A model generated the notes under the pieces. That model was given only the letters and a program-made list of their open reading frames with translations. It had not been told where the DNA came from and did not search any database. DNA of 64,000 bases from Gordonia insulae (lineage in GTDB: Bacteria; Actinomycetota; Actinomycetes; Mycobacteriales; Mycobacteriaceae): NCBI RefSeq assembly GCF_003855095.1, contig NZ_CP033972.1:5456001-5520000 (forward strand), written 5' to 3'. This document shows, in pieces, positions 16,607 to 36,458 of the stretch. Made by a program: the position numbers and the translations under genes. Numbering within the stretch: position 1 is the stretch's first letter; each line of letters begins with the position of its first letter.

Positions 16607-16792
16607 ATGGCAAAGAAGGCTCTGGTCAACAAGGCCAACAAGAAGCCCAAGTTCGCCGTGCGGGGCTACACCCGGTGCAACCGTTGCGGTCGTCCGCACT
16701 CGGTGTTCCGCAAGTTCGGCCTGTGCCGAATCTGCCTGCGCGAGATGGCACACGCCGGCGAGCTGCCGGGCGTGCAGAAGTCGAGCTGGTGA
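16607..16792 (+). CDS. rpsN: 30S ribosomal protein S14, zinc-binding (type Z)
   Basis: 61 residues, the short zinc-binding form of S14. Two CxxC pairs (C24/C27 and C40/C43) make a zinc knuckle, and the ending GVQKSSW is typical. S14 is a late 30S assembly protein of the head. The start lies one base after the rplE stop. It is the last gene of this block: a terminator follows, and rpsH, the usual next gene, is 19 kb away. Confidence 0.97.
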
Positions 16793-16862
16793 CTTCTCAC
16801 CCGATTTCGTAGTACGAACACGCGGAATCCGCGTGTAGGCACTACGGATTCAACAGGTTTGG

Positions 16863-16903
16863 CGAACGGCCCCACCTTCCGGACGGGAAGGTGGGGCCGT
16901 TCG
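16863..16903. terminator. bidirectional hairpin terminator between rpsN and the DUF4262 gene
   Basis: A perfect 18-bp stem (16863-16880 with 16886-16903) and a five-base loop, lying 70 bases after the rpsN stop and 3 bases after the stop of the convergent minus-strand gene. No T-run follows on either side, as is common in GC-rich actinobacteria. Confidence 0.8.
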
Positions 16904-16906
16904 TCG

Positions 16907-17512
16907 TCACCCGCGACGCTCGCGCATCGCTCGTCGCCGTTGTGCGCGATTGGGCCCCGACCCTCGGCTGATGACGCGTGGGCCGCGAACCACGCCGGTG
17001 CCCGTCCCGGAGAAGCCCTTGATCTCCTGATCAAGAACCCGCAGTGAGCAGTCCTCGTCCCACGGGTACTGCCCGAAGTCGTCGGGCCAGATCGCTTGTA
17101 GTGCGGGCGAGTCCGGGAAAAGCTCGTTGGTGAGGAGCAGGTCGTCCTTGTCGACCATCTCGATCACGCGAACCGGGACCTCGAGTGAGGTGAGTCGGAT
17201 GTCGACAGCCCGGTCGACGCATTCGCGCCAGTCATGTGTGTGGAACAGGTCGCCGAGCTCGTTGAGAACAGTGCCGCCGGTGGCGGCGTCGAGGCCGTAG
17301 ATCGCGAGCTCGGGGATGTCGTGCAGGGTGAGGCCGGACGTATAGGCGAACGAGCACTCCGGAGGGCGGCAGTCGTCCGACTGGCACGAGCACTGCTCGC
17401 TCACCGCGGTCACCGCCCATCCGCATTCCCGGATTCGGTGGATGGTCTCCTGGATCAACGGGTTGGGATGCCAGCGTCGAAGTCCCCGGATCGCGGCGGC
17501 GTGATCGGACAT
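16907..17512 (-). CDS. DUF4262 domain protein
   Basis: 201 residues. The central part (about residues 25-150) fits DUF4262, a family of unknown function, with the typical FAYTSGLTLHDIPELAIYGL. The N-terminus carries a cysteine cluster (CSCQSDDC...C) that could bind metal. The C-terminal tail is very basic (NRAQRRRAMRERRG). The ATG at 17510-17512 was preferred because AAAGGAG stands 7 bases upstream; a 50-codon longer reading lacks this. It is divergent from the decarboxylase gene, with 152 bp between. Function unknown. Confidence 0.8.
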   Translation of the reverse strand: MSDHAAAIRGLRRWHPNPLIQETIHRIRECGWAVTAVSEQCSCQSDDCRPPECSFAYTSGLTLHDIPELAIYGLDAATGGTVLNELGDLFHTHDWRECVDRAVDIRLTSLEVPVRVIEMVDKDDLLLTNELFPDSPALQAIWPDDFGQYPWDEDCSLRVLDQEIKGFSGTGTGVVRGPRVISRGSGPNRAQRRRAMRERRG

Positions 17513-17664
17513 GATTCGCTCCTTTGTTCGAAGGTGCGATCGAGTAGACCAGAGCGGTCCGACAAGGTCGTGAGCCGATGTGAGCGCTTTGTGAGAGGGA
17601 TCTGGTGAAGTCGGACAGAATTGACAGGGCCGGGGGCCTCGACGACGACTGACAGGGCGCACGT

Positions 17665-19341
17665 ATGACGACTCCGTACACCGTTGCCGACTACCTCTTC
17701 GACCGGTTGGGCGAACTCGGAGTCGACACCGTCTTCGGGGTGCCCGGGGATTTCACCCTGGGCCTCCTCGACCACATCGACGACCGTGACGATCTCTCGT
17801 GGGTCGGCACCGCCAACGAACTGGGGGCGGGTTACGCCGCGGACGGATATGCCCGCATGCGCGGGGTCGGTGTCGTGTGCTCGACCTTCGGAGTGGGCGA
17901 GCTCAGCGCCATCAACGCCGTCGCAGGCGCCTACGCCGAGCATGTGGCCGTCCTGCAACTCGTCGGGTCGCCGACCGAACCCGTGCAGGCCGCCGGGAGG
18001 CCGACACACCACTCGCTCGGCGACGGCGACTTCGACCACACGTTGCGCATGACCGTCGAGGTGACGGTGGCGCAGGCGAAGCTCACCGCGACTACCGCTC
18101 CGGGAGAGATCGACCGCGTGCTGGCGACGATGGTGGCACTGCATCAGCCGGGCTATCTGTCACTGCCGGCCGACGTCGCGGAGGCGCCCTGCACACCGCC
18201 GTCGGGAGCGCTCGCGGTACCGGCGGCGACGACGGATGCGACGGTCTTGCGCCAGTTCACCGCGGCTGCACTGCGATTGCTCGACGGGCGGTCCCCGGTC
18301 GTGCTGGCCGACATCTATGTGCACCGGGCAGGTGCACAGGACGAGCTGGACCGATTCGTCAAAGTCGGCGGCCTCCGCTACGCGTCGCTGCTATGGGGAC
18401 GACGGGTGGTCGACGAGAGCGGGCCCGGCTACCTCGGACTGTATCTCGGGGCCGCGAGCAGCCCGGAGGTCCGCGACGCCATCGAGAACACTGCATGCCT
18501 CGTCACCGCCGGTGTCTACTTCACCGATCTCATCTCCGGTTTCTTCAGTCAGCACCTGGACGCCAACGTCCGGATCGACCTGCAGCCGCATACCGCGGTC
18601 GTCGCGGGGGAGGTGTTCACCGGGATCGAGATGAGTGATGCCCTCGCCGCGTTGACGGACGTGATCCCGCCCGCCGACCCCGCCGACACCGACCCCGTCC
18701 CGACACCCGATGCGGTGCCGGTGGCCGATGCGGTCGACGCGGATTCGCCTCTGTCGCAAGCGGTGTTGTGGGAGCGGGTGGCCACCGCGCTGACGTCGTC
18801 GGACATCGTGCTCGCCGACCAGGGCACATCCTTCTACGGCATGGCCGGTCAGCATCTGCCGCATGGGGCCGTGTTCATCGGGCAGCCACTGTGGGCGTCG
18901 ATCGGGTACACGCTGCCGGCGATCGTCGGTGCCGCGGTCGCCGCGCCGGAACGACGTCCTGTGCTCCTGATCGGCGACGGCGCAGCTCAATTGACCATCG
19001 CCGAACTCGGCACCATCATCCGTCTGCGCATCCCGGCGGTGATCGTCGTCGTCAACAACAACGGGTACACGGTCGAGCGGGCGATCCACGGACCCGACAA
19101 GGCGTACAACGACATCGCTGCGTGGAACTGGACCGCGCTGCCCGCCGCATTCGGTGGTACGCCGGACACCGTCCGTGCGCACCGGGCGACCACGGCGAAC
19201 GAGTTGTCTGCGGCATTCGCGGACGCAGCCGAGCGCCCCGGCATGCTGACCCTGATCGAAGCGGTCACCGGTGAACTCGATGTGCCCCCGGTCCTGGAGG
19301 CCGTCGCGGAGGCGGCGGCGAGGGCGAACACGAAGTCGTGA
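17665..19341 (+). CDS. kdc: ThDP-dependent 2-keto acid decarboxylase (Kdc/IPDC/PDC family)
   Basis: 558 residues, full length for the pyruvate/indolepyruvate/branched-chain keto acid decarboxylase family, which converts 2-keto acids to aldehydes plus CO2. Visible features: the cofactor-activating glutamate in ANELGAGYAADGYAR (about residue 50), the HH pair in RPTHHSLGDGDFD (about 114), and the ThDP/Mg site GDGAAQLT...NNNGYTVE (about 434-470). It is similar in type to the mycobacterial kdc product. Substrate preference cannot be read; an Ehrlich-type pathway or auxin-like aldehyde formation are possibilities. It ends 36 bp from the convergent ATPase gene. Confidence 0.88.
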   Translation: MTTPYTVADYLFDRLGELGVDTVFGVPGDFTLGLLDHIDDRDDLSWVGTANELGAGYAADGYARMRGVGVVCSTFGVGELSAINAVAGAYAEHVAVLQLVGSPTEPVQAAGRPTHHSLGDGDFDHTLRMTVEVTVAQAKLTATTAPGEIDRVLATMVALHQPGYLSLPADVAEAPCTPPSGALAVPAATTDATVLRQFTAAALRLLDGRSPVVLADIYVHRAGAQDELDRFVKVGGLRYASLLWGRRVVDESGPGYLGLYLGAASSPEVRDAIENTACLVTAGVYFTDLISGFFSQHLDANVRIDLQPHTAVVAGEVFTGIEMSDALAALTDVIPPADPADTDPVPTPDAVPVADAVDADSPLSQAVLWERVATALTSSDIVLADQGTSFYGMAGQHLPHGAVFIGQPLWASIGYTLPAIVGAAVAAPERRPVLLIGDGAAQLTIAELGTIIRLRIPAVIVVVNNNGYTVERAIHGPDKAYNDIAAWNWTALPAAFGGTPDTVRAHRATTANELSAAFADAAERPGMLTLIEAVTGELDVPPVLEAVAEAAARANTKS

Positions 19342-19377
19342 GGTGTGTGCGACCGACCACACCTGCCTCGCAGGTGA

Positions 19378-22300
19378 TCAGCCGGCCGATTCGCGAGCGA
19401 TGTCGACGACCTCCTCCTCGGTGGGCGGGCTCTTCGGGTGATGGCTGAGGCACAGTGGGGTCGAGATCTTCGCGAAGCCGCCGCCCTCGCGGGCGACATA
19501 GAAGACGCCGGTCCGCAGCCTGCCGACGTCGTCGATGGAACTGCCTTTCGCACGGGCGATCTCGCGTGCGGTATCGATCTGCACCGGCGCGTTGAGCATG
19601 CCGAAGAACTGGGTGGCCGAGTTCCCGGGGATCTTGGCGTTCAAACCCTTCGGCGCCTGCGTCGCGAACACGAGGCCGAGTCCGTACTTGCGTGCCTGCG
19701 ATACCAGGGCGAGGGTGCTCTGCGAACACGCCGTCCCGCGGTCGGACGGTGCGTAGTTCTGTGCCTCATCCATGACGAAGAGTCCACCGAGGGGGCGGTC
19801 GCCGGCGGGATGCTTCTTGATCCACGCGAACAACGCCATCTGGAGTTCGTTGACGAAGTTGGACCGTTTGTCCTCGCTCGAGAGCGCGGCGAGATTGATG
19901 ACCGATACCCGTGCGCGATAGCCCGGTGACGGGGTGAGCAACACGCCGGGATCCGCGGGTGCGCCGGCCCCGCCGAAGAGTGGGTCGTTGGCGCGAGCGG
20001 CTTTCAGATTCTCGGCCATGTCCGCCGCATAACGACGAGCCTCCCGAAGTCCGCTGACACCATCGGGAAGGTCGGTCAGCAGCTCGATGAGTTCGGCGAT
20101 CCCGCCGTGGCCCTGCCGGCCGAAGTATCGGAGCGCATCCTTCAGTACCGCTTGGGATTGCGAGGCCTTCGCCGTCCGTCCGCCGACCAGGGCACGTGGG
20201 ATCAACCCGGCTGCAGCGGCCTCGACCGCCGCCTCGAACTCATCGGGATCGTCGACGACGTCGGAGAAGTCGGGCAGCGGACGGAAACTGAGAGGACGTC
20301 CCGAGGAGCGGCCCGGCGTGAACACCGCGACCTCGGTGTCGGCGAAGTACTGTTTCGCCTTCTGCTCTTCCAGTTCGCTCGACCAGGTTCGTTCACCGGC
20401 CGGCCACGGCATGCCCAGACGCGCGAGGTCGTTGTTCACATCGAGCACGATCGACGAGACCCCTTGGAGGGCGCACTCCTCGATCATGCGGCGGATCAGG
20501 ACCGTCTTCCCCGAACCGGAACCCGCAAAGATGGCGGTGTGCTTACGCAGGGCCTCGAGAGACACCGACACCGCGGGGCCGCCGGTCAGCGGGATCCCGA
20601 GCGTGATCGATGGAACCGCCTCCGCCGCAGTGTGACTGGATGCGACTTTGTTTCGATCAGCGATTGCGACGGGACTCGGCGAGGCAACTGCTGCGGCTTC
20701 TCTGAGATCGGCCGGAGCGGTCGACGGAACACCGGTGTGCGCCGACGCTTGCCGTTGCGGGGCCGGTCGTCGCGCGGGGGAGGGCGTGGGCTTTGGGACA
20801 CTCGGCGGCGGAGTTGCCAGGGGCGGCAGCAGGGAAGGCTCGGGAGCGGCATGGCGGCCGTCCTCGCCGGACCCGGACATCGGCTCGGTGACGAGCGACG
20901 TCGCCACGATGTCCCGGAGGAACGCGATCTGTCCGGCCGGATTGCGCAGCGCGATCCACTCACTGAGGAATTCTGAACGCTCCGAACGTAGTTGACGCAG
21001 CGCCATCAGAGTGCGGATGTCGTCGTCGGACCACGCCACCACGTGGCCACCGCGCGCGTGCATCTCGTCGACCATCTGAGTGGTCTTGGTACCCGACGGC
21101 CATGGCGTGCGCCGCAAGACGATCAGGGTGCGCCGCTTGCCGCCGAGGCTGAGTCCGGCGGCGGTGGTGGCATTGGCGAGGCGGGATTGGACAGAGCGAT
21201 AGTGGGTCGCCGCGATGCCCCGGAAACTCCACGATTGTTCGGAGTCGGTCTCGAGGTCGACGATACGGCGGAGCGTCCCATGGAGGTTGGCTTTCGGACT
21301 GGGCTTCGGGTCTTGCTGGAACCGGTCGGCGCCTTCGGGGAGGGCTTCTATCCACGATGCGAGACCCGCGTGGAGCAACGGCGGGACGACAGCATCTTCC
21401 TGCTCGGCCGAGACGGCTGGAGCGACATCGGCGGCGGACTTGAGCTCGTCGAATCGCCGGTCGAGTTGCGCCAGTTCGGGTTTGTCCTCGGCGACGGGAT
21501 CGATGTCGATCACGGTCGTGTGTCCGAGGCTGCGCATCTCGGTGAAAGCATCCGCCCGCAGGGATGACCCGATGTGGCGATCAACGTTGCGCATCAGCTC
21601 GCGGGGGGTGTAGTCGCGGGCTTCGGCGAGTGCCCCTTCGGTGACGGGCCAGGTGGCGTAGGGAGGTGAGAAGCCTGCCTCGGCGAAGCATGGGGCGAAG
21701 CGTTTGGCGAGCAGTGTCCGCCCGAACTCCACCGTCGTCGGTCGTTGCAGGATCGGCGGTTGGCGGAACCTGTCGACCACGGAACGCATGACGTGGCTCT
21801 CGAGGTACTGCCAGGCCGCCGTGATGCAGGAGACGACGGCGACGGTGCGGCTCATCGTCTCTCTGACGGACATGAGTCCGTGAGCCACCTTCTCGACCGA
21901 GTTCTCATCCTCGCGGCGTTCCGATTTGGCAGCTTCGATGAGGGTGTCGATCTGATCGATCGCGAGCACGGCAGCGTTGTCGAACGCGATGATGCGCGAG
22001 ATGTTCTCGACGATCTCCTGATACCCGAGCCGCGCGTTCCGGATGCCCCAGGCCGAGAGATCCTCGGCGTCGTCGATGTCGAGATGGAGGAACGACTCAC
22101 CGAGATCCTTGACGGCGAAGTCATCGGACTCGGTCAGGACGAGGGCGCGGAGGATGTGCTGGGATCGTCGGCGATGACGAGAGTGCTTGGTGTAGACACC
22201 TCGGATGAACTGGTCGAGGTGGTCAGGAGACAGCTCGGCCTCGCCCGAGACGGCGGCGATGATCTCGTCGGGCAGCCCGGCCTCACCACCCAGACGATCG

Positions 22301-22680
22301 AGGAGTTGGGTGAGCTGCGAGCGGTGCGTCGGGGTTGGGCGACTCAGATCCTCCAACAGGCCGACCAGAATCGATCTCCAGAAATCCTCACCGTCAAGCA
22401 GTTTCACCAGAAAGAAATACCCGCCGCGGGCGTGGACCTGTTCGCGGACCTGACCGAAGAGGTGAGTCTTCCCCGATCCGGCGGGCCCGCGGACCGCGAC
22501 TCCGAGTGGACTTGCGGAGGTGCTGCGAGCCGCGTCGCCGAAGGCGCGGAGGACCTCGTCCACGACGTCGTCGTGCAGCCCCGGAACGTGCAGTGGTGTT
22601 TGTGGCCCCCAGACGTCGTCCGGTGTGGTGGCCCAGTCGAGACGGATGGCCTCGAGTGCTCGTCTGGTCTGGGTGTCCAT
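19378..22680 (-). CDS. double ATPase: N-terminal AAA-like plus C-terminal HerA/DUF87-like motor
   Basis: 1100 residues. The N-terminal P-loop domain (about 40-390) has Walker A GPAGSGKTH (65-73) and Walker B VLAIDQID (238-245). A middle region (about 510-595) of unknown fold is followed by a Pro/Ala/Ser-rich linker (600-690). The C-terminal domain (about 700-1085) is HerA/VirB4-like, with Walker A AGSGSGKT (719-726), Walker B GLFVMDEAQNYAP (966-978) and the sensor-like VFATQAPKG (1004-1012). HerA-like motors are ring-forming DNA translocases that often pair with nucleases. The ATG overlaps the winged-helix gene stop by one base (TGATG), so the two are coupled. The fusion of two P-loop domains is unusual. 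I infer DNA translocation in a defence or conflict system; I do not recognise it as a named system. Confidence 0.85.
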   Translation of the reverse strand: MDTQTRRALEAIRLDWATTPDDVWGPQTPLHVPGLHDDVVDEVLRAFGDAARSTSASPLGVAVRGPAGSGKTHLFGQVREQVHARGGYFFLVKLLDGEDFWRSILVGLLEDLSRPTPTHRSQLTQLLDRLGGEAGLPDEIIAAVSGEAELSPDHLDQFIRGVYTKHSRHRRRSQHILRALVLTESDDFAVKDLGESFLHLDIDDAEDLSAWGIRNARLGYQEIVENISRIIAFDNAAVLAIDQIDTLIEAAKSERREDENSVEKVAHGLMSVRETMSRTVAVVSCITAAWQYLESHVMRSVVDRFRQPPILQRPTTVEFGRTLLAKRFAPCFAEAGFSPPYATWPVTEGALAEARDYTPRELMRNVDRHIGSSLRADAFTEMRSLGHTTVIDIDPVAEDKPELAQLDRRFDELKSAADVAPAVSAEQEDAVVPPLLHAGLASWIEALPEGADRFQQDPKPSPKANLHGTLRRIVDLETDSEQSWSFRGIAATHYRSVQSRLANATTAAGLSLGGKRRTLIVLRRTPWPSGTKTTQMVDEMHARGGHVVAWSDDDIRTLMALRQLRSERSEFLSEWIALRNPAGQIAFLRDIVATSLVTEPMSGSGEDGRHAAPEPSLLPPLATPPPSVPKPTPSPARRPAPQRQASAHTGVPSTAPADLREAAAVASPSPVAIADRNKVASSHTAAEAVPSITLGIPLTGGPAVSVSLEALRKHTAIFAGSGSGKTVLIRRMIEECALQGVSSIVLDVNNDLARLGMPWPAGERTWSSELEEQKAKQYFADTEVAVFTPGRSSGRPLSFRPLPDFSDVVDDPDEFEAAVEAAAAGLIPRALVGGRTAKASQSQAVLKDALRYFGRQGHGGIAELIELLTDLPDGVSGLREARRYAADMAENLKAARANDPLFGGAGAPADPGVLLTPSPGYRARVSVINLAALSSEDKRSNFVNELQMALFAWIKKHPAGDRPLGGLFVMDEAQNYAPSDRGTACSQSTLALVSQARKYGLGLVFATQAPKGLNAKIPGNSATQFFGMLNAPVQIDTAREIARAKGSSIDDVGRLRTGVFYVAREGGGFAKISTPLCLSHHPKSPPTEEEVVDIARESAG

Positions 22681-23345
22681 CAGACGTCCTCGATGGCGAA
22701 GAGATGGCAATCTTGTGTGCCGACTCGGACGGACGCCTGCCGCTCGTCATCGGTCAGAAGCATTTGGTCCTCCTGGGGAATGAGGCTTACACCTGGTTCC
22801 CGCTGAAGAGCGACCAGTACAGCGTCCAACTCCGAGCGATCGATGCCCGCGAGCGCCTGACGCAGTGCGAGGACACCGACCCACCGTCCAGGGCCGGACG
22901 TCACGGCGTGATACGTGGCCCGGATTCTCTGATCGAGCGGCACTGCATCCGCCGACGGCTCTGCGGAAGGTTCTGCCTCCGCCGCTGATCCACCACCGGC
23001 AACTCCGAACACCTCATGCAGTCGGAGATCGCTCGCCGCCAGGTAGCGACCGACCCCGGCCATCACCGCGTAGAGCGCGCGGATCGGGGGCAACGACTTC
23101 GGCGGGGGTGCGGCGCTGAGTTCCCGGGCACACCAGGCCCATCCGCGATCGGTGAGCGAATGGCTGAAGGCGTTGCGGGAGCCCTTGCGAGATTCGATCA
23201 GGCCCAACCGGTTCAGCTTGTCCCGGCTGGGCTTCTTCAGGTCGGGCGCGAGCGCCGCCAGGTCCGGGTTACGTACCTCGCGCGCCTCGGCCATCAGCAC
23301 GAAGAGCACGGCACTCTCCGACGGTGTCAGCTGCGGATGGTCCAT
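22680..23345 (-). CDS. winged-helix DNA-binding protein, middle gene of the cassette
   Basis: 221 residues. The N-terminal 75 residues look like a MarR-type winged helix (LTPSESAVLFVLMAEAREVRN, then KLNRLGLIESRKGSRNAFSHSLTDRGWAW). An Ala/Glu-rich linker (about 113-135) leads to a second globular part (136-221) that also reads like a small winged helix, ending in a hydrophobic motif (VRVGTQDCHLFAIEDV). Its start is one base after the nuclease stop, and its stop overlaps the ATPase start. It could be a DNA-binding subunit of the complex or a repressor of the cassette. The family of the second half is not recognised. Confidence 0.75.
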   Translation of the reverse strand: MDHPQLTPSESAVLFVLMAEAREVRNPDLAALAPDLKKPSRDKLNRLGLIESRKGSRNAFSHSLTDRGWAWCARELSAAPPPKSLPPIRALYAVMAGVGRYLAASDLRLHEVFGVAGGGSAAEAEPSAEPSADAVPLDQRIRATYHAVTSGPGRWVGVLALRQALAGIDRSELDAVLVALQREPGVSLIPQEDQMLLTDDERQASVRVGTQDCHLFAIEDV

Positions 23346-23346
23346 C

Positions 23347-24456
23347 TCATGGCTCCTCGTGATGGTCGGCGGTGGTTGGGGTCGGCACTGCGACAGCTGG
23401 TGTACGAATCCCGGAACGGGTATCCAGGACCGCTCGCAGTTCGTCGACGACGAGTCCGACGTCGGTGAGCACCTGGTGGTTGGTGTAGCGCAGGACCATG
23501 CACCCTTGACGTTGCAGAATGTTGTCGCGGATGCGGTCGGCCGCGTACTTGTCGGGGCGGCGGTGGTCGTCGCCGTCGACCTCGACGACGAGGCGGGCAC
23601 TGGGCCAGAAGACATCGACGATGGCCATCGGCAGCATCGGGTCGAGGTCGCCGATCCGTCGGTTCCACCGTCGGCCATCGGCCCAGATCGTTCTCGACAG
23701 GGCACGTTCGAGTGCCTGTTCCGCCGCGCTGTGGGGCGATGGTAGGCCCTCGCACCGCGAGATCGTGAGGACCGGTGGATCGTCGTCGGAACTCTGCGAC
23801 GCGTGCTCGACGACCGGGCCTGCGCCACCGATTCGATCGGGTCGGCCCCGCACATGCGTACAGCGGGTCACCTCCGGTAGGACGCCCGCCGACAACCACA
23901 CGGTGAGCCGACCGTGGTGGGCGAGCCAGGTGAGCCCTTCCTCCACGGCAGCCTGTACGTCCGTACCGGAAGCCTCGTCGGCGCCGACGGCAACAACGAT
24001 CGACTCGCGCCTGTAGCCGCGCCGGATCAGCCGGGCGAGTCCGCGTAGACGGATCTCGGTGGAGAACTGTGATCGTGGAACCATGCCGGCCGCAGCGGCA
24101 CGCGCCAGCTCGACGACGAACGGTCGGTAATCCTCGCTGTCCGAGCACAGATCATGTGCCAGCTGCTCCGCCGTGGCGGCGTCGACGGTCGGGCCGAGAT
24201 CATCGTCGGTGAGCCATGCGGGAAACAGTCGGATCGCGATGTCGGTCATCGCGGCGACGATCTCGTCGACGATTCCGCGCGCACTGGTCAGGTCGGTGCG
24301 CCAGTAGGCGAGGATGACGGGGATGTCGGAGCGGATGTCGGTGAGGAGGTCATCGAGATCCTGTTGCGTGACGTCGACGAGGCGGAGTACTCGACCCGGT
24401 CGCACGACGTGACTCGACCATGCGTCATTCGGGCCGCCCACGTCGCTGCTCTCCAT
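23347..24456 (-). CDS. DUF559 (Vsr-fold) endonuclease domain protein
   Basis: About 369 residues from the ATG at 24456. The C-terminal region (about 243-343) is a DUF559/Vsr-like nuclease: E246 and E250 in the first helix, D281 in IVDVFWP, the E292-x-D294 pair in LVVEVDGDDH, then DNILQRQGCMVLRYTNHQV. The N-terminal domain (about 20-200) is not recognised; it contains AYWRTDLTSARGIVDEIV and LFPAWL. A TTG at 24501 would add 15 residues. I prefer the ATG because TATATT (24505-24500, minus strand), a possible -10, directly precedes that TTG. It is the first gene of the three-gene cassette, 90 bp after narK. The nuclease role is family knowledge; a defence role is inferred. Confidence 0.8.
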   Translation of the reverse strand: MESSDVGGPNDAWSSHVVRPGRVLRLVDVTQQDLDDLLTDIRSDIPVILAYWRTDLTSARGIVDEIVAAMTDIAIRLFPAWLTDDDLGPTVDAATAEQLAHDLCSDSEDYRPFVVELARAAAAGMVPRSQFSTEIRLRGLARLIRRGYRRESIVVAVGADEASGTDVQAAVEEGLTWLAHHGRLTVWLSAGVLPEVTRCTHVRGRPDRIGGAGPVVEHASQSSDDDPPVLTISRCEGLPSPHSAAEQALERALSRTIWADGRRWNRRIGDLDPMLPMAIVDVFWPSARLVVEVDGDDHRRPDKYAADRIRDNILQRQGCMVLRYTNHQVLTDVGLVVDELRAVLDTRSGIRTPAVAVPTPTTADHHEEP

Positions 24457-24546
24457 CGCCGGTGCGGTGCTCGACACCCGCACGGATTCGTCGAAGAGCA
24501 ATATAACCGTCGACCCGGACAGGCGCTGACCGGCGGCCCGGGTATG

Positions 24547-25761
24547 TCAGGCGGGACGTTCCTCCCGCTTCCTGATCCCGAAGATGGTGAACACCAGGGC
24601 GAAGCACGCGGTGATCACCAACAGGACGAGGCCGATCGTGTAGCTGTGTGCCTCGGCGTCGTAGGTCGCCCCCAACACCAGTGGTGGGAAGAATCCGCCG
24701 AGGCCGCCGGCTGCGCCGACGATGCCGGTGACCGAGCCGACCCGGGCTGCCGGGGCGTCCCGGGCCACCCAACTGAACACAGAGCCCGACCCGAGACCCA
24801 TGCACACCGCCATCAGGACGAAGTCCAGACCCGCGGGGATCTCGAGCGGCGGTTGGGTGATCATCCACACCGCCAGGAGCGCCGCGCCCGCGGTGGAGAT
24901 CGCCGTGATGATGCGCGGCCCGAAACGATCGGACAGGATACCGCCGAGGGGGCGCGCGATGACCGCGGCGACCGCGAAACCGGCTGTGCGTGTGCCTGCT
25001 GCCTGTAGGTCGAAGTCGTAGACGTCCTTGAGGTAGGTCGGCAGGTAAGTGGAGAAGGCCACGAAACCGCCGAAGGTCGCCGCGTACAGGAATCCCATCT
25101 GCCAGGTGATCGGGAGTTTGGCCGCCGCGATGAGTTTCGGTGCGACCGCATCGCGGTTCGGCGCCCACTGGGGTGCGTCGCGCATGAACATCCACACCAC
25201 CGCGGCGACCACGACGAGGGCGACGGCGATGATGACGTGGGTCGTGACATACCCGAACCAGCTGACGAACCGGGGCGTGAAGAATGCGGACAGGGCGGTG
25301 CCACCCATACCGGCGCCGAACACACCGGTCGCGAATCCCCGTTTGGACGGGTCGTACCAGGCGTTCACGAACGGGATGCCGACGGCGAAGGTGGTACCGC
25401 CGATGCCGAGGAAGAACCCGATGACCAACATCATCGGGTAGGAGCCGAGTTCTCCTGCGACGGCGATGAGGACGACGAACGGCGCTGTCGCGATCAGGAG
25501 CACAGGAAACATCAGACGCCCGCCGAAGCGATCCGTCAGTGCGCCGGTGAGGATCCGGCCGACGGACCCGACGATGATGGGGATCGCGACGAGGATCGAC
25601 TTCTGGGACGACGAGAGGTCCAGGACTTCCGAGTACCGGACCCCGAGGGGGCCGACGATGTTCCACGCCCAGAAGCTGATGGTGAAGGCGAGTGTGGCGA
25701 GGAAGAGGTTGACACTCTGCCCGGATCGCAGGGTCGCGGGATTCGTGGACGGTGTGGTCAT
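24547..25761 (-). CDS. narK: NarK-type nitrate/nitrite transporter (MFS)
   Basis: 404 residues with about twelve hydrophobic segments. The nitrate/nitrite porter signature is visible in the glycine-rich stretches GFFLGIGGTTFAVGIPFVNAWY (about residues 110-131) and VGSVTGIVGAAGGLGGFFPPLVLG (about 338-361). These proteins import nitrate and/or export nitrite in nitrate respiration. The ATG overlaps the narI stop by 4 bases, so narK closes the narGHJI operon. Import versus exchange cannot be decided from sequence. Confidence 0.93.
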   Translation of the reverse strand: MTTPSTNPATLRSGQSVNLFLATLAFTISFWAWNIVGPLGVRYSEVLDLSSSQKSILVAIPIIVGSVGRILTGALTDRFGGRLMFPVLLIATAPFVVLIAVAGELGSYPMMLVIGFFLGIGGTTFAVGIPFVNAWYDPSKRGFATGVFGAGMGGTALSAFFTPRFVSWFGYVTTHVIIAVALVVVAAVVWMFMRDAPQWAPNRDAVAPKLIAAAKLPITWQMGFLYAATFGGFVAFSTYLPTYLKDVYDFDLQAAGTRTAGFAVAAVIARPLGGILSDRFGPRIITAISTAGAALLAVWMITQPPLEIPAGLDFVLMAVCMGLGSGSVFSWVARDAPAARVGSVTGIVGAAGGLGGFFPPLVLGATYDAEAHSYTIGLVLLVITACFALVFTIFGIRKREERPA

Positions 25762-26504
25762 CGCTGCCGATCCTTGGTTCCGACGGGAGCCCAACCGGGC
25801 CGGGACGAGCGGTTCCCGGGCGTGCGAGCGGCGTCGCGGCTCCGGTAGACGATGTAGGGCCGGAACAGATAATGCACCGGCGCGGTGAATGCATGGACGA
25901 GTCGGGTGAACGGCACCATCGCGAAGACGAGCATGCCGACCAGGACGTGGATGTGGAACCGCGCCGGAGCCTCGCTCATCGCGTGGACATCGGGCCGCAG
26001 GTAGAAGATCGACCGGAACCACGGTGACACGGTGTCCCGGTAGTTCACCCCCTCGGCGCCCGGCACCATGCCGATGAGCGTGACGTACACACCGAGTGCG
26101 AGCGCCGCGGTGAGTACGACGTACATGGTCTTGTCGTTGGTGGTCGTCGCCATGAATACCGGCCCGGTCCTGCGGCGACGATAGATCAAGATCGCGAGGC
26201 CACCGAGAGTGGCGATGCCTGCGATGATCCCGAAGCCCGCCGCGACGACGTGATAGGTGTGCTCGGACACGCCGATCGCCTCGGTCCACGATTCGGGGAT
26301 CACCAAACCCATCGCGTGCCCGATGATCACCACCAGGATTCCGAAATGGAACAGGGGCGACCCGATGCGCAGGAGCCGGGACTCGTAGAGTTCCGACGAC
26401 CGTGTGGTCCAGCCGAACTTGTCGTAGCGGTATCGCCAGATCGTGCCGCCGATGAGCAACAGCAGCGTCACGTAGGGCAGGACACCCCACAGCAGCACGT
26501 CCAT
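25758..26504 (-). CDS. narI: respiratory nitrate reductase gamma subunit (cytochrome b)
   Basis: 248 residues with five hydrophobic segments. NarI anchors the NarGH dimer to the membrane and passes electrons from menaquinol through two b hemes. Candidate heme-ligand histidines are in SPLFHFGILVVIIGHAMG and in FHIHVLVGMLVF followed by TRLVHAFTAPVHYLFRPYIVYRS. The C-terminal tail is basic. It begins 4 bases after narJ and overlaps narK by 4 bases. Confidence 0.95.
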   Translation of the reverse strand: MDVLLWGVLPYVTLLLLIGGTIWRYRYDKFGWTTRSSELYESRLLRIGSPLFHFGILVVIIGHAMGLVIPESWTEAIGVSEHTYHVVAAGFGIIAGIATLGGLAILIYRRRRTGPVFMATTTNDKTMYVVLTAALALGVYVTLIGMVPGAEGVNYRDTVSPWFRSIFYLRPDVHAMSEAPARFHIHVLVGMLVFAMVPFTRLVHAFTAPVHYLFRPYIVYRSRDAARTPGNRSSRPGWAPVGTKDRQR

Positions 26505-26508
26505 GACC

Positions 26509-27195
26509 TCACCTGACCTCCATGATCCGGCTCGCTCGCTGTGGTCCCTGCGCCGCCACGGCTATCGGGAGCAACCTCGGGTCGTACGGTTCGAGCCCGA
26601 CCGATTCGGCAGGCGGTGGCGCGCCCTGCATGGTCATCACAGCGCGACGGTCGACGGGCGACTGGCCCGGGAGCGTCGCGCAGACGGCTGCGACGACGTC
26701 CGCATAAGGAGTTCGACGATCGAGGAGAGACAGCCGCAGGAGCTCGAGGGCCGGCCGATGTTGTTGGAGGAGCCGGGAGCCGGACTGTGGGTCGACTCGT
26801 GCGGCGAACTCCAGCACGATCGGTAGGTGGTCGGGCAGTTCGCCGCCCAGGTCCACGAGGAAACCGCTGTCGCGGTAGTGCTGCTTGAACGCGCCGAGGG
26901 CCTCACCGCGCCGTCGGGTGTCGCCCGCGGTCCAGTAGGAGAGGTACAGAGTGTGCTTGCGTGACAGGTCGAAGAGGTCGATGTAGTTCTGACGCAACAC
27001 CTCCGGGGCTGAGGTCCCGAGGTGGCCGACGAAATCCCGGAGCGCCGTGATCGTCTGGTCGACAGGTTGCTCGGCGAGGGCGGCGTCGAGCAGCGGCGCC
27101 ATCGCGATCGTCTCGTCGTCCGGATAGCTCAGGCATACGGATGCCGCTTGGCGGATGACTGCCGGATCGGGTCCGCGGCGACTACCGAGTCTCAC
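26509..27195 (-). CDS. narJ: nitrate reductase assembly chaperone (delta subunit)
   Basis: 228 residues. NarJ is a cytoplasmic chaperone of the TorD/DmsD type that holds apo-NarG for molybdenum cofactor insertion and membrane docking; it is not part of the final enzyme. Family features include the N-terminal CLSYPDD, LRQNYIDLFDLSRKHTLYLSYWTAGDTRRRG (typed across residues 88-118) and GGELPDHLPIVLEF. The GTG start overlaps the narH stop by 4 bases (GTGA). Confidence 0.94.
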   Translation of the reverse strand: MRLGSRRGPDPAVIRQAASVCLSYPDDETIAMAPLLDAALAEQPVDQTITALRDFVGHLGTSAPEVLRQNYIDLFDLSRKHTLYLSYWTAGDTRRRGEALGAFKQHYRDSGFLVDLGGELPDHLPIVLEFAARVDPQSGSRLLQQHRPALELLRLSLLDRRTPYADVVAAVCATLPGQSPVDRRAVMTMQGAPPPAESVGLEPYDPRLLPIAVAAQGPQRASRIMEVR

Positions 27196-28856
27196 CGTTC
27201 CTCCGGCTGTTTGGGGAACATGCCATCCGGGACACCGTTACCGTCCCAGTTGAGCAGGTTGGTTCGCGCGGACATAGCGCGCGAGCTCGCTGCGGTGTCA
27301 CTGGTCTGTCGTTGGCGGAGAGCATGAAAGGTCTCGACCGAGACCGGTGCCGGCCGTCCGCTCGCCTCACCGAAGGCAGACGAATCGAACATTCCGGGGC
27401 CATCGTCGTAATCCAGGGAGCACCCGATCTCCTCGAGGTCGTGCGCCTGTTCCAGATGGGCCGTCGGGATCACGTATCGCTCGTCGTATTTCGCGATCGC
27501 CATCAGGCGGTACATGCGGTAGATCTGCTCTTCACTCATTCCGACGGCCGCGGGTATCGACGCGTCGGGCTCGCGCCCCAGGGTCACACCCCGCATGTAC
27601 GAGCGCATCGCGGCGAGTTTGCGCAGGACCCCTTCGACCACCGTTGTGTCGCCGGCGGTGAACAGCTCGGCGAGGTAGTCGAGCGGGATGCGCAGAGAAT
27701 TGATGGCGCCGAACAGGTTTCGGTGATCCTCCGCGTCGTGCCCCTGTTCGGACAGCAGATCGACGATGGGTGAGAGAGGTGGGACGTACCAGACCATGGG
27801 CATCGTGCGGTACTCCGGATGGAGCGGTAGGGCAACCCGATACGTCTTGGCGAGCGCGTACACCGGGGAGCGGCGGGCGGCGTCGAGCCAGTCCTCGGGG
27901 ATGCCCTCTGCGCGCGCAGCCGCGATCACCTCGGGATCCTCCGGATCCAGCATGAGGTCCAGTTGCGCGGCGTAGAGGTCCTTCGCGTCCGGCACGGAGG
28001 CGGCCGCCGTGACGGCATCGGCGTCATAGAGAAACAGACCGAGATAGCGGAGCCGGCCCACGCATGTCTCCGAACAGACGGTGGGCAGGCCCACCTCGAC
28101 GCGCGGATAGCAGAACGTGCACTTCTCGGCCTTGCCGGACTTGTGGTTGAAGTAGATCTTCTTGTAGGGACATCCGGTGATGCACTGTCGCCAGCCGCGG
28201 CAACGATCCTGGTCGACGAGGACGATCCCGTCCTCTGACCGTTTGTAGATGGCGCCCGACGGGCACGACGCCATACACGACGGGTTGAGGCAGTGCTCGC
28301 AGATCCGCGGCAGATAGAACATGAAGGTCTGCTCGAAGCTGAACTTGATTGCGTCCTCGGACTCGCGGCGCAGCTTCTCGACGACGGGGTCGAGCCCGCC
28401 CATCTCCGGTGCGCCGCCGAGATTGTCGTCCCAGTTGGCCGACCACGAGACCTTGGTGTCCTCGCCGGTGATGAGCGACTTCGGCCGGGCCACCGGGAAG
28501 TCGTCACCGAGGGGCGCGTCGACCAGTGTCTGATAGTCGTAGGTCCACGGTTCGTAGTAGTCGTCGAGGGTCGGTTGCACCGGGCTGGCGAACAGCGTCA
28601 GCAACTTCTGCAGCCTGCCGCCGGTGCGCAGCCTCAGGCGCCCCTTCTTGTCGAGATGCCAGCCGCCGCGCCACTGTTCCTGATCCTCGTAGCGGCGCGG
28701 ATAGCCCTGGCCGGGCCGTGTTTCGACGTTGTTGAACCAGACGTATTCCGTGCCCGCCCGATTCGTCCAGGCCTGTTTGCAGGTGACCGAACACGTATGG
28801 CATCCGATGCACTTGTCGAGATTCATCACCATGCCCATCTGGGCCATGACACGCAT
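27192..28856 (-). CDS. narH: respiratory nitrate reductase beta subunit (Fe-S protein)
   Basis: 554 residues. NarH carries three [4Fe-4S] and one [3Fe-4S] cluster linking NarI hemes to NarG. The ferredoxin-like cysteine groups are visible: CIGCHTCSVTCKQAW near residue 17, CEHCLNPSCMASCPSGAIYKR and CRGWRQCITGCPYKKIYFN in the middle (the W in place of one Cys is the usual [3Fe-4S] variant), and CTFCYPRVEVGLPTVCSETCVGR split over two short stretches. The ATG at 28854-28856 overlaps the narG stop by one base. A longer upstream reading lies inside narG and was rejected. Confidence 0.96.
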   Translation of the reverse strand: MRVMAQMGMVMNLDKCIGCHTCSVTCKQAWTNRAGTEYVWFNNVETRPGQGYPRRYEDQEQWRGGWHLDKKGRLRLRTGGRLQKLLTLFASPVQPTLDDYYEPWTYDYQTLVDAPLGDDFPVARPKSLITGEDTKVSWSANWDDNLGGAPEMGGLDPVVEKLRRESEDAIKFSFEQTFMFYLPRICEHCLNPSCMASCPSGAIYKRSEDGIVLVDQDRCRGWRQCITGCPYKKIYFNHKSGKAEKCTFCYPRVEVGLPTVCSETCVGRLRYLGLFLYDADAVTAAASVPDAKDLYAAQLDLMLDPEDPEVIAAARAEGIPEDWLDAARRSPVYALAKTYRVALPLHPEYRTMPMVWYVPPLSPIVDLLSEQGHDAEDHRNLFGAINSLRIPLDYLAELFTAGDTTVVEGVLRKLAAMRSYMRGVTLGREPDASIPAAVGMSEEQIYRMYRLMAIAKYDERYVIPTAHLEQAHDLEEIGCSLDYDDGPGMFDSSAFGEASGRPAPVSVETFHALRQRQTSDTAASSRAMSARTNLLNWDGNGVPDGMFPKQPEER

Positions 28857-31800
28857 CAGTAGGTCACCTCCTGGCTTCGTTTCCGGATGGTGGAGACCAT
28901 GTCGCGCTGGTTGCCGGCGGGGCCCAGATAGTTGAAGGCATACGACAGTTGGGCGTAACCGCCGATCATGTGCGTCGGTTTGACGAGGAGCCGCGTCACC
29001 GAGTTGTGAATACCGCCGCGCCGACCGGTCGCCTCGGACTTCGGCACGTCGATCGTCCGCTCCTGCGCGTGGTGGACGTAGCAGACCCCGTCCGGCATGC
29101 GGTGACTCACGATCGCGCGGCACACCACCACACCGTTGGCGTTCGTGCACTCGATCCAGTCGTTGTCGCGGACATCGATGGAGGCGGCGTCGGCGGGACT
29201 GAGCCACGCCGTCGGACCGCCGCGCGAGAGCGAGAGCATGAACAGGTTGTCCTGATACTCCGAGTGGATCGACCACTTGGAGTGCGGGGTCAGATAGCGA
29301 ACCGTGATCTGGCGGTCGCCGTCGGGGCCGAGTTTCGGTTCGCCGAACAACCGGTGCATGTCCAATGGCGGCCGATAGATCGGGAGGGACTCACCGATGT
29401 CGATCATCCAGTCGTGATCGAGGTAGAAGTGCATCCGGCCCGTGAGGGTGTGAAAGGGCTTGAGCCGCTCGATGTTCACCGTGAACGGTGCGTAGCGGCG
29501 GCCACCGGTTTCCGAGCCGGACCATTCCGGTGAGGTGATCACGGGAACCGGTGCCTGCTGAGTGTCGGCGAATCGGATGCGCTTCTCCTCGGAGCCGCGG
29601 GCGAGATCGTCGAGCACGAAACCCACGCGTCGCTGCAGCGTGCGGAATCCCTGGACCGCGAGTTCGCCGTTCGTGGTGCCGGACAGTGTCAGGATGGCCT
29701 CGGCGAGCTTGGCGTCGGTGTCGATGGCCGGGCGTCCGTCGCCGGCTCCGCCGAGCATCACGCCGTTGGCCTCGGACAGCTTCTTGTTCTGCTCGGTGAC
29801 TTCGTACGTCACGTTCTTGACGGTGAAACCGAGTGAATCGGCGAGGGGCCCGATCGTGCCCAACTTGTCGGCGATCGCCGTGTAATCCCGTTCCACCACA
29901 CTGAAGGTCGGCATGTTCCGTCCCGGACGAGCGGGTACCGCCCCGCCGGAGCCCCACCAGTCGGCCACCCGACCGTGCGGTTGGGCGACCTCGCCCGGTG
30001 TGTCGTGTTGCAGTGGGACGCTCACCAGATCGCGCCGGATGCCGAGGTGGGTGCGCGCCAGGTCCGAGAACCTGGTGGCGAGCAGGTGGAACAGGTCGAA
30101 GTCGGTCTTCGCCTCCCACGGTGGATCGATCGCCGGCGAGAAGGCATGGACGAACGGATGCATGTCCGTGGAGGACAGGTCGTGTTTCTCGTACCAGGTC
30201 GCCGCGGGGAACACGACGTCGGAGAGCAGGGTCGTCGACGTCATGCGGAAGTCCGCCGACATCAGCAGGTCGAGTTTGCCCTCCGGGGCCTCGTCGTGCC
30301 ACACCACATCACGCGGACGGGGGGCATCCGGGTCCTCGGTGCCGAGCACATTGTGGTGGGTGCCGAGCAGATGTCGCAGGAAGTGTTCGTTGCCCTTCGC
30401 CGACGATCCCATCAGATTCGAGCGCCACAGCACCAGGGTGCGTGGCCAGTTCTCGGGTGCGTCGATGTCCGAGATTGCCGGGGTCAGCGAGCCCGAGGAG
30501 AGTCCCTGTGCGACATAGCTGCCGACGCTCTCGGCGTCTCCACGCTCGACTGCTTCCTGTGCCGACTCGGCGACATCGAGCGGATTGGTCGAGAACTGGG
30601 GGTAGAAGGGCATCCAGCCCAGGCGCGCCGATTGCGCTATCGCGTCGGCGGTGTGCTCGTGGTCGAGGACCCCGCGTGACAGTGGAGAGGTCAGCGAGGC
30701 CGCAGAATAGCCGTCGGTGCGCCACTGGTCGGTGTGCATATACCAATACGACGTGCCGGTCATCGTCCGTGGTGGTCGGGTCCAGTCCAGCGCGTTGGCG
30801 AGTGAGATCCAGCCCGTGATGGGGCGGCACTTCTCTTGGCCGACATAGTGCGCCCAGCCGCCGCCGTTGCGACCCATGCATCCGGTGAGGATCAACAGTG
30901 ACAGGATCGATCGGTAGGTGGCGTCCCCGTGGAACCACTGGCAGATGCCTGCGCCCATGATGATCATCGACCGGCCGTCGGATTCGTCTGCGTTGGTCGC
31001 GAACTCGCGGGCCACTCGGATGGCCGCCTCGGCCGGAACGCTGGTGATCTCGGCCTGCCACGCGGGCGTGTACGGGGTCTCGGCGTCGTCGTAACCACTA
31101 GGCCAGTCACCCGGCAGCCCGTCACGGGCCACGCCGTACTGGGCGAGCATGAGGTCGAAGACAGTGGTGACGAGGTGCCCGCCGACGCGGCGTACCGGCA
31201 CGCCGCGATGGAGGACAGAGCCGCTGCCGTCCGGCGCGTCGAACGCCGGAAAGCTCACTGGTACGAACTCATTGCCGTCGCCATACAGACTCAGTGCCGG
31301 CACGATCCCGTCGAGATCGAGATTCCATCGGCCGACACCGGAGTCGGCGTACCGGAAACCCATGGAACCATTGGGCACGACGGGTTGTCCGGTCGCCTGG
31401 TCGATGAACACCGTCTTCCAGACGTCCTCCTCCGGGGAGCGTGCTGCGCCGAGTTCGTCGGCAGTCACGAACTTTCCCGGCACATAGCCCTTGTCCCGGT
31501 CGCCGTCGCGCTCCTCCAGGTGCACCAGAAACGGCAGGTCCGTGTAGCGGCGGACATAGTCGTCGAAGAACGGGGTCCGTTGCCGGACAAAGAATTCGGT
31601 TAGGATCACATGGCCCATCGCCATGGCCAACGCGGCGTCGGTGCCCGCCTGCGCCGGGAGCCATTCGTCGGCGAACTTGGTGTTGTCCGCGTAGTCCGGA
31701 CTCACTGTCACGACCTTGGTGCCGCGGTATCGCACCTCCGCCATCCAGTGCGCATCCGGGGTCCTGGTCACCGGGACATTGGATCCCCACATCATCAGAT

Positions 31801-32575
31801 ACGTCGCATCCCACCAGTCGCCGGATTCGGGGACATCGGTCTGATCGCCGAACACCTGGGGGCTGGCCACCGGGAGGTCGGCGTACCAGTCGTAGAACGA
31901 CGTCATCACGCCACCGATGAGCTGGATGAATCGTGTACCGACACAATGGGAGACCATCGACATCGCGGGAATCGGGGAGAATCCCGCGCAGCGGTCGGGT
32001 CCGTAGGTCTTGATCGTGTGCACATGTGCGGCCGCGGCGATCTCGATCGCCTCGTCCCATGAGACGCGCACCAATCCGCCTTTGCCCCGCGCCTGCTGAT
32101 AGGAGCGGCGGCGAAGCGGGTCCCCGACCACGTCGGCCCAGGCGAGGACCGGGTCGCCGAGCCGGGCCCGTGCCTCGCGGAACATCTCGACGAGTACCCC
32201 GCGGGCGTACGGGTACCGAACTCGCGTGGGCGAGTATGTGTACCAGGAGAAGGCGGCGCCGCGTGGACATCCGCGAGGTTCGTACTCGGGGCGGTCGGGA
32301 CCGACCGAAGGGTAGTCGGTCTCCTGGGTCTCCCAGGTAATGATCCCGTCCTTGACATACACCTTCCAGGAACAGGAGCCGGTGCAATTCACCCCATGTG
32401 TGGAGCGCACGATCTTGTCGTGACTCCATCGATCGCGATAGAAGACGTCGCCGGCACGCCCGCCACGACGGAACACCGCACGCCCGTCGTCGCTCTCATC
32501 CCACCGGGTGAAGAACCTGCCGACATCCAGCAGTGCCTTCGCCGCCTCGCCGTCCACTCCGGAAGATCGGCCCAC
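28856..32575 (-). CDS. narG: respiratory nitrate reductase alpha subunit (Mo-bisMGD)
   Basis: 1239 residues, the usual NarG length. NarG is the catalytic subunit reducing nitrate to nitrite. The N-terminal [4Fe-4S] motif with its His ligand is present (STHGVNCTGSCSWKVYVKDG, about residues 58-77), followed by QETDYP and RGCPRGAAFSWY. There is no obvious Tat signal beyond the vestigial start typical of cytoplasmic NarG. It starts at a GTG (32573-32575). It is the first gene of narGHJI-narK; the 177-bp upstream gap holds a direct repeat that may be an operator. Confidence 0.96.
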   Translation of the reverse strand: MGRSSGVDGEAAKALLDVGRFFTRWDESDDGRAVFRRGGRAGDVFYRDRWSHDKIVRSTHGVNCTGSCSWKVYVKDGIITWETQETDYPSVGPDRPEYEPRGCPRGAAFSWYTYSPTRVRYPYARGVLVEMFREARARLGDPVLAWADVVGDPLRRRSYQQARGKGGLVRVSWDEAIEIAAAAHVHTIKTYGPDRCAGFSPIPAMSMVSHCVGTRFIQLIGGVMTSFYDWYADLPVASPQVFGDQTDVPESGDWWDATYLMMWGSNVPVTRTPDAHWMAEVRYRGTKVVTVSPDYADNTKFADEWLPAQAGTDAALAMAMGHVILTEFFVRQRTPFFDDYVRRYTDLPFLVHLEERDGDRDKGYVPGKFVTADELGAARSPEEDVWKTVFIDQATGQPVVPNGSMGFRYADSGVGRWNLDLDGIVPALSLYGDGNEFVPVSFPAFDAPDGSGSVLHRGVPVRRVGGHLVTTVFDLMLAQYGVARDGLPGDWPSGYDDAETPYTPAWQAEITSVPAEAAIRVAREFATNADESDGRSMIIMGAGICQWFHGDATYRSILSLLILTGCMGRNGGGWAHYVGQEKCRPITGWISLANALDWTRPPRTMTGTSYWYMHTDQWRTDGYSAASLTSPLSRGVLDHEHTADAIAQSARLGWMPFYPQFSTNPLDVAESAQEAVERGDAESVGSYVAQGLSSGSLTPAISDIDAPENWPRTLVLWRSNLMGSSAKGNEHFLRHLLGTHHNVLGTEDPDAPRPRDVVWHDEAPEGKLDLLMSADFRMTSTTLLSDVVFPAATWYEKHDLSSTDMHPFVHAFSPAIDPPWEAKTDFDLFHLLATRFSDLARTHLGIRRDLVSVPLQHDTPGEVAQPHGRVADWWGSGGAVPARPGRNMPTFSVVERDYTAIADKLGTIGPLADSLGFTVKNVTYEVTEQNKKLSEANGVMLGGAGDGRPAIDTDAKLAEAILTLSGTTNGELAVQGFRTLQRRVGFVLDDLARGSEEKRIRFADTQQAPVPVITSPEWSGSETGGRRYAPFTVNIERLKPFHTLTGRMHFYLDHDWMIDIGESLPIYRPPLDMHRLFGEPKLGPDGDRQITVRYLTPHSKWSIHSEYQDNLFMLSLSRGGPTAWLSPADAASIDVRDNDWIECTNANGVVVCRAIVSHRMPDGVCYVHHAQERTIDVPKSEATGRRGGIHNSVTRLLVKPTHMIGGYAQLSYAFNYLGPAGNQRDMVSTIRKRSQEVTY

Positions 32576-32598
32576 AGTTGTCCACCATACGATCGAAG

Positions 32599-32651
32599 CG
32601 AATCCGGTTGGTGAAATGCGAGAAATCGGCCGATGAACGAATCCGGTTGGT
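32599..32651. promoter_or_regulatory. direct-repeat pair upstream of narG (candidate operator)
   Basis: Two identical 14-mers, CGAATCCGGTTGGT at 32599-32612 and 32638-32651, 39 bases apart start to start, in the narG upstream gap. Placement and exact repetition suggest a regulator site for the nar operon. The regulator is not known. Confidence 0.45.
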
Positions 32652-32752
32652 CAGTTGATGCTCTCCTCCCGGTGCGAATTCGGCCTGAGCGTCGTACCTC
32701 TCAGGACGACATCGAGCCGGTGAGGTTTGTCTCGTTACTGTTGCGGCGCCGT

Positions 32753-33085: not shown

Positions 33086-33169
33086 GAACTCATTTTCCTC
33101 GCCCGGGACCTCCGGAGGCGGGGTTCGGCCGAAGTCACCCGCTGCGCTGTGCCCCGGGAAACCGCGCCG

Positions 33170-34237: not shown

Positions 34238-34289
34238 GGGTCAATACTGCCGCAGCCGGGCCGCTCATTCCCGCCTCGTCGGCCGGCGG

Positions 34290-35057: not shown

Positions 35058-35149
35058 CTGCGTAGATTACGGTCCGCGCCCGTCGGGTCCCGGCCGGTTT
35101 CGGCCGAACGGGTTCGTGTCCGACGGTTCGCTGGATACCCTCACCGACC

Positions 35150-35815: not shown

Positions 35816-35822
35816 CGGTGAT

Positions 35823-36059: not shown

Positions 36060-36458
36060 ATGACCATGACTGACCCGATCGCAGACTTCTTGACACGTCT
36101 GCGTAACGCCAACTCGGCGTTCCATGACGAGGTGACCCTCCCGTCGTCGAAGATCAAGGTGAACATCGCCGAGATCCTGAAGCGCGAGGGCTACATCACC
36201 GACTACCGCATCGAAGATGCCGAGGTCGGCAAGAGCCTCGTCGTCTCCCTGAAGTACGGCCCCAGCCGTGAGCGCAGCATCGCCGGCTTGCGTCGCGTCT
36301 CCAAGCCCGGCCTTCGGGTGTATGCAAAGTCCACCAACCTGCCCAAGGTTCTGGGCGGCCTCGGCGTGGCCATCATCTCCACGTCGTCCGGCCTGCTCAC
36401 CGACCGTCAGGCAGCCAACCAGGGCGTGGGCGGCGAAGTCCTCGCTTTCGTCTGGTAG
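36060..36458 (+). CDS. rpsH: 30S ribosomal protein S8
   Basis: 132 residues, beginning [20 protein letters not shown] and ending with the conserved [21 protein letters not shown]8 binds the central domain of 16S rRNA early in 30S assembly and in several bacteria represses its own operon. It is the first gene of the second part of the spc operon. GAGAAAGG lies about 12 bases before the ATG; the second ATG, two codons in, is an alternative start. Confidence 0.97.

Follow-up and report, generated by a model that had tools for sequence, protein, structure and literature searches.

Among described bacterial defence machines, those nearest in parts to the locus reported here are the 'HerA/FtsK capture' systems, put forward in 2024 as an untested prediction (PMC10853773; Nucleic Acids Res, by Krishnan et al. 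as we take it). As laid out in the main text of that paper, their parts are an Orc/CDC6 AAA ATPase, an inactive restriction endonuclease (REase) insert, an active REase, a HerA/FtsK motor and a winged helix-turn-helix (wHTH), distributed over one or several chains. The class described there has the inactive REase inserted between the AAA+ module and a C-terminal wHTH, an active REase from either of two families and a HerA domain from clade 2, 4 or 5 of the published tree; the AAA is proposed to set the machine on DNA and the motor to intercept the invader, during segregation or transfer. Here we describe a cassette in Gordonia insulae that encodes a DUF559 nuclease, a double winged-helix protein and an ATPase of 1100 amino acids (aa). 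It lies in a window of 64,000 nucleotides (the whole stretch analysed; NZ_CP033972.1, forward strand, 5,456,001–5,520,000), to which all coordinates below refer, in a genome of one 5.96-Mb contig; the closest named homologues of its proteins in a database protein search are from Gordonia. The cassette probably constitutes a separate defence system, with a presumed antiphage activity, and with moderate confidence we regard it as an anti-invader system of the capture type, acting on plasmid or phage DNA, and as an unnamed variant of the published kind.

This mode of action is suggested by the parts of the cassette, which match the capture list with some differences. In common with the systems in the main text of PMC10853773, it has a HerA/FtsK ATPase, an Orc/Cdc6-like AAA+ ATPase of the Orc/CDC6 family, a wHTH component and a nuclease predicted to be active, and its middle domain is possibly a counterpart of the degenerate nuclease-like insert. 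Unlike them, it carries its AAA, middle domain and HerA motor in one chain, shows no wHTH after the middle domain, and has a nuclease of the DUF559 type that is often absent; neither DUF559 nor Vsr occurs in that main text, on which the difference is judged, and cassette loci may figure in the supplementary tables. The initial annotation could not put a name to the combination. In agreement with this, no PADLOC 2.0.0 model names the three-gene set, and no publication naming the trio was found among the top-ranked matches of a literature search outside which lay most subscription papers and all preprints; nearly the same parts had, however, been predicted by 2024, as the main text of PMC10853773 shows.

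Other HerA-bearing systems differ in architecture. In DndFGH/DptFGH, the HerA part of the roughly 1700-aa DndH is preceded by SWI2/SNF2, TRD and REase modules, whereas the cassette has no matching fused modules and a separate small nuclease; the DndH PADLOC model aligns with its ATPase only over residues 962–1009 (E 0.018), short of the DndH architecture. The HerA part has its best PADLOC match in mad8 of MADS (E 2.9e-17; several HerA models match too), but no other mad model is matched by the three proteins and the mad set is missing. In contrast to SIR2-HerA and DUF4297-HerA, the effector is DUF559 without a SIR2 or DUF4297 partner, an Orc/Cdc6-like AAA shares one chain with the motor, and the third protein is a wHTH. 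BREX-Related Capture (BRC), as described in the accessible part of PMC12839542, likewise joins HerA/FtsK to an Orc/Cdc6 AAA and a wHTH-type DNA-binding protein, but is built from seven components, PglZ and a STAND NTPase among them, against two or three genes here. HerA-NurA repair is marked by a NurA partner and general conservation, whereas the trio has no NurA among its Pfam matches and only 10 of 31 Gordonia genomes have the full ATPase.

Architecture of the cassette and its proteins

The cassette consists of three genes:

23347..24456, minus strand: DUF559 nuclease gene (Pfam PF04480; alignment of 25 homologues)
22680..23345, minus strand: double winged-helix (wHTH) gene, 221 aa (modelled structure)
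19378..22680, minus strand: 1100-aa ATPase gene (Pfam, fold matches, motifs)

They follow one another on the minus strand in the order nuclease, wHTH, ATPase, with a single base (23346) between the first two and a one-base overlap, TGATG, between the last two; these coordinates bear out the order, strand and tight packing initially described. The proposal that a TATATT box gives the cassette its own promoter fared less well, as a promoter scan ahead of the nuclease gene found no sigma-70-like site. The narK gene on the same strand ends 90 bases upstream, so read-through from narK into the cassette is possible. A search for boundary repeats or attachment sites across 16700–36100 returned short or imperfect repeats only, apart from one perfect 18-base hairpin (16863–16903), which lies beyond the ribosomal S14 gene and is given no weight as a boundary.

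The nuclease, of the Vsr/PD-(D/E)XK type, is about 364–369 aa long (the start codon is uncertain by about five codons; an identical database protein has 364 aa) and matches DUF559 at E 1.7e-12 (47.6 bits against a gathering cut-off of 20.6). Its nuclease domain spans residues 245–344 and its N-terminal half (about 1–230) is uncharacterised. The catalytic set is intact, as the first reading had it: E246, D281, E292, D294 and H298 are invariant across the 25 aligned homologues, including the E292-x-D294 motif, and E250 is nearly so. The ExDG..H motif is kept in 53 of the 54 cassette nucleases examined, and PADLOC 2.0.0 gives weak matches only.

Where one or two winged helices had been expected in the 221-aa protein, two are modelled, at residues 8–76 and 137–218 (mean pLDDT 89.7), and the first matches MarR-type folds in a fold search of residues 1–78. 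The protein has no Pfam match above the curated cut-off and no PADLOC 2.0.0 match. Calmodulin matches of its profile in the PDB and an IF3_N match in Pfam were rejected as noise.

The ATPase, in which Pfam recognises AAA_16/AAA_22 followed by DUF87, divides into four parts:

residues about 1–387: N-terminal AAA domain, Orc/Cdc6- or TnsC-like fold
residues about 400–597: middle domain, alpha-beta-beta-beta-alpha-beta order in the model (residues 428–549)
residues 597–687: linker, disordered
residues 688–1100: HerA/DUF87 motor

The fusion of an AAA-like domain to a HerA motor in one chain thus stands as annotated; the AAA is further recognised as Orc/Cdc6- or TnsC-like, and a folded middle domain had been overlooked. 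All motifs fall where they had been placed, with a first Walker A (GPAGSGKTH, 65–73), a first Walker B ending in DQID (242–245), the HerA Walker A (AGSGSGKT, 719–726) and MDEAQ at 970–974. A fold search of residues 7–387 and 686–1090 matched DndH-C, HerA, ORC2 and TnsC, the HerA motor being nearest to DndH/HerA, with VirB4 and TrwB also among the HerA-domain matches; the AAA part has weaker PADLOC matches to Avs2. The modelled strand order of the middle domain, together with a weak PADLOC mREase_II match at residues 514–555 (E 0.0097), suggests that it is possibly a degenerate, inactive REase-like fold. Kinship of this domain with DUF559 was considered and rejected (hhalign probability 0.1 percent).

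Conservation of the gene set and its patchy distribution

A species-level genome scan (E up to 1e-3) yielded at least 510 stretches encoding some relative of the ATPase. Among the best 80, which were examined, the ATPase is near full length in 79, the remaining one (L083) being cut by a contig end, so the cassette is not rare; the other 430 stretches may include more distant HerA proteins. The 84 loci compared comprise the scan loci, three plasmid-collection records and the window, with L001, which repeats the window, dropped. A wHTH gene adjoins the ATPase in 83 of the 84, again with the exception of the cut L083; in L049 (9374–10001) this gene matches in two separate reading frames, owing to a frameshift or a sequencing error. 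All 84 ATPases have the HerA Walker A, DEAQ and QARKYG-type motifs; 82 carry the first Walker A pattern (all but L079 and the cut L083) and 68 a strict first Walker B pattern.

The nuclease is present in 55 of the 84 loci and absent from 29. For four of the latter (L034, L036, L053 and L083) the upstream sequence is shorter than 0.9 kb; among the other 80 loci, with enough upstream sequence to judge, 25 clearly lack the nuclease. The trio holds as a conserved multi-gene set, but its stable unit is the wHTH–ATPase pair, and the nuclease is detachable. Sister loci with and without it can be close: the ATPases of L056 and L033 are 94.6 percent identical. A FastTree tree built from 82 ATPases (without L079 and L083, which did not fit the start pattern; 79 were scored) requires the nuclease to have been gained or lost at least eight times. 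Several actinobacterial families share the three-gene order, which is also complete on a megaplasmid of the alphaproteobacterium Methylobacterium; such recurrence in distant genomes argues that the grouping is more than chance. Over 54 loci that have the complete trio (without L046 and the duplicate L001), pairwise identities gave Spearman coefficients of 0.58 for nuclease–ATPase, 0.44 for wHTH–ATPase and 0.29 for nuclease–wHTH, which are uncorrected for kinship and carry no weight as evidence.

Two loci have unusual layouts. In Rhodococcus sp. IEGM 1381 (L019, 610–9579) one nuclease gene is followed by two tandem wHTH–ATPase pairs, a layout in which one effector may serve two reader–motor units. 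In L106 (4369–11632; genome G025) the nuclease, wHTH and full ATPase are followed by a second ATPase frame of about 650 aa, which matches the AAA and middle parts only and has no HerA motor.

Within the genus, the full ATPase occurs in 10 of 31 Gordonia genomes (that of G. insulae included), and two more have weak HerA-like matches only. The 21 genomes that lack it are all at least 90 percent complete, and rplE was found in 31 of 31. Across the family, some ATPase match occurs in 39 of 61 genomes, full-length in 13 (one of which, in G086, has a stop inside), as a broken copy in G039 and as short HerA-domain matches in the rest. Set against rplE in every Gordonia genome, this patchiness indicates that the cassette is accessory, and a housekeeping role, which conservation across relatives would have indicated, is rejected. 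The G039 copy (G039:C2:921009-923546) is broken by several stop codons, a case of decay of an accessory gene.

An insertion interval in the spc ribosomal operon

The cassette lies in a 19-kb block between the S14 and S8 genes of the spc ribosomal operon, confirming the interruption that had been read from the sequence:

15338: rplN (tblastn with annotated Tsukamurella ribosomal proteins)
15708: rplX (tblastn, as above)
16027: rplE (tblastn, as above)
16607..16792, plus strand: S14 (type Z), left anchor (tblastn and gene calls)
24547..32575, minus strand: narK and nar operon, not part of the system
36060..36458, plus strand: rpsH (S8), right anchor (gene calls)

S8, named from its sequence, is followed by what we take to be rplF (36471) and rplR (37011). 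The nar gene names are likewise our assumption from the sequence, with Pfam MFS_1 for 24547–25800 (narK). The block also holds a thiamine pyrophosphate (TPP) enzyme and a DUF4262 gene, and a nar operon occupies the same S14–S8 position in several other Gordonia genomes. At least one anchor places each of the ten Gordonia copies of the cassette inside this interval: both S14 and S8 in G000, G001, G009 (with L007), G021 (about 50 kb apart) and G027, S14 only in G006, G022, G025 and G030, and S8 only in G026. In nine Rhodococcus-type loci and one Tsukamurella record the cassette instead lies between rpsQ and rplN (in L016 by the rpsQ side only), a second break of the same ribosomal super-operon.

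Known defence genes, whose adjacency the initial annotation had proposed to check, do occur in the Gordonia interval. Cas1g, Cas8g and Cas3g of a type I-G CRISPR-Cas system lie on its S14 side in G023 (L105, 1645–10467, contig C73), and MzaC- and MzaB-like genes with a PDC-S27 match lie in it in G028 (L109, 1592–9202). Among the 25 cargo families listed are type I-G CRISPR-Cas, PD-T4-6 and weaker matches to MADS and AriA models. Elsewhere, the Phytohabitans copy (L077) has Cas3g as a neighbour, and the Paractinoplanes copy (L041) a DrmMI/type IIG-like enzyme.

Several further features of these intervals were observed. The Tsukamurella tyrosinosolvens record NZ_LR134464 (labelled plasmid 22, 224 kb; L003, 5879–21945) carries S10–spc ribosomal genes; its rpsQ–rplN gap holds the cassette together with a VapBC pair and a DEAD helicase. 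In the window, a minus-strand reading frame of 4632 aa (1017–14915), presumably a nonribosomal peptide synthetase, lies directly upstream of rplN, and neither rpsQ nor the S10 genes were detected within the 64 kb, which suggests that the rpsQ–rplN junction is interrupted here too. An uncharacterised protein of 580–1147 aa recurs in the S14–S8 interval of six Gordonia genomes (L086, 14554–17994; L101, 5226–8627; and relatives), often with a neighbour of 150–200 aa; the L086 copy has no PADLOC match.

Capture of invader DNA and competing explanations

In the capture model, the double winged-helix protein and the Orc/Cdc6-like AAA would seat the complex on invader DNA of a particular or unusual kind, and the HerA domain would form a hexameric ring that pumps this DNA. 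Where present, the DUF559 nuclease would cut the captured DNA, and the middle domain, if a degenerate nuclease fold, may offer a surface for docking or for holding DNA. We infer that the proteins form a complex and translocate DNA, and likewise infer their target and their antiphage effect.

Several observations weigh against this reading, foremost the clear absence of the nuclease from the 25 loci above. In seven pairs of nuclease-free copies omega is 0.077–0.108 (one pair includes L034, whose upstream sequence is cut), inside the 0.036–0.227 range of the 25 closest pairs. Such purifying selection indicates that the pair is maintained and not decaying, and hence that the core has a use without this nuclease. 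Supply of the nuclease in trans was considered and rejected, since no full-length orthologue was found elsewhere in 20 of the 25 nuclease-free genomes, searched whole with about 86 first-look candidates scored per genome (L030, L042, L049, L064 and L084 were left out). No match there exceeded 58.2 bits, almost every one fell on the generic DUF559 domain, and two of the 20 gave none; all four controls were recovered (E at most 5.8e-113). Many generic DUF559 genes occur in the same 20 genomes. The selected nuclease-free pairs are the main fact that the capture model leaves unexplained: capture may be effective by itself, a different cellular nuclease may stand in, or the pair may have some additional role.

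The middle domain, moreover, had no PDB or convincing Pfam sequence match. There is little sign of mobility, as no cassette relative was found in the phage records or viral contigs searched and only three plasmid-collection records, one of 11.9 Mb, carry it. The company of defence genes must also be read with care. PADLOC at E 1e-10 gave 117 families for 96 cargo proteins of the Gordonia interval (of 111 non-redundant representatives) versus 8, none of them CRISPR-Cas, for 96 control proteins taken at set positions in other parts of Gordonia genomes, a contrast inflated because one Cas protein matches dozens of models and because proteins resembling the genes that flank the cassette in the window were removed beforehand from the cargo and not from the control. 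Twelve of 20 hand-picked cargo proteins (6/10 and 6/10) had no PADLOC match, and the presence of nar and metabolic genes alongside the defence genes makes the interval a mixed hotspot. In other actinobacteria, 96 of 328 representatives of the cassette neighbours gave 90 PADLOC families, without a control set, and 5 of 10 hand-picked neighbours were unmatched.

A broader proposal, which we put forward tentatively, is a widespread, unnamed defence class with a core of two proteins, the double winged-helix reader and a motor chain of Orc-AAA, pseudo-nuclease and HerA, in which ring capture itself would disable invader DNA, a nuclease being recruited in some lineages only, and which in Mycobacteriales would sit at insertion points within the S10–spc operon. 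Somewhat less probable is a narrower form of the capture model, a restriction-like barrier aimed mainly at plasmids and conjugative DNA and less at phages, in which the winged helices would read transfer-specific DNA. VirB4 and TrwB among the fold matches point that way, as does the interception during segregation or transfer proposed in the main text of PMC10853773, but such folds match HerA-like motors generally and the data do not separate plasmid from phage targets.

The wHTH–ATPase pair could alternatively serve in DNA maintenance, repair or segregation, as a HerA-NurA-like or FtsK-like machine with the nuclease as an occasional accessory. This would accommodate the purifying selection on nuclease-free pairs and the HerA fold shared with repair HerA. 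It would also fit six nuclease-free mycobacterial loci (L024, L025, L026, L030, L032 and L042) that share the same upstream gene, as expected of a stable chromosomal gene; that gene we take to be FAD-dependent reductase-like. A machine of this kind is nevertheless unlikely given the 21 near-complete Gordonia genomes without the full ATPase, the repeated gain or loss of the nuclease and the company of defence genes. That the cassette is a mobile-element remnant or cargo whose ATPase serves transfer, with no defence role, is very improbable: it does sit in insertion intervals and on the Methylobacterium megaplasmid, but no phage record or viral contig searched carries it and its make-up of two or three genes is fixed.

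HerA-type motors recur in bacterial immunity, and the motor's own contribution is often unclear. If the cassette is a capture system, its natural close pairs with and without the nuclease make the idea that capture alone protects directly testable, and the ribosomal-operon interval offers a simple place to seek more actinobacterial defence genes.

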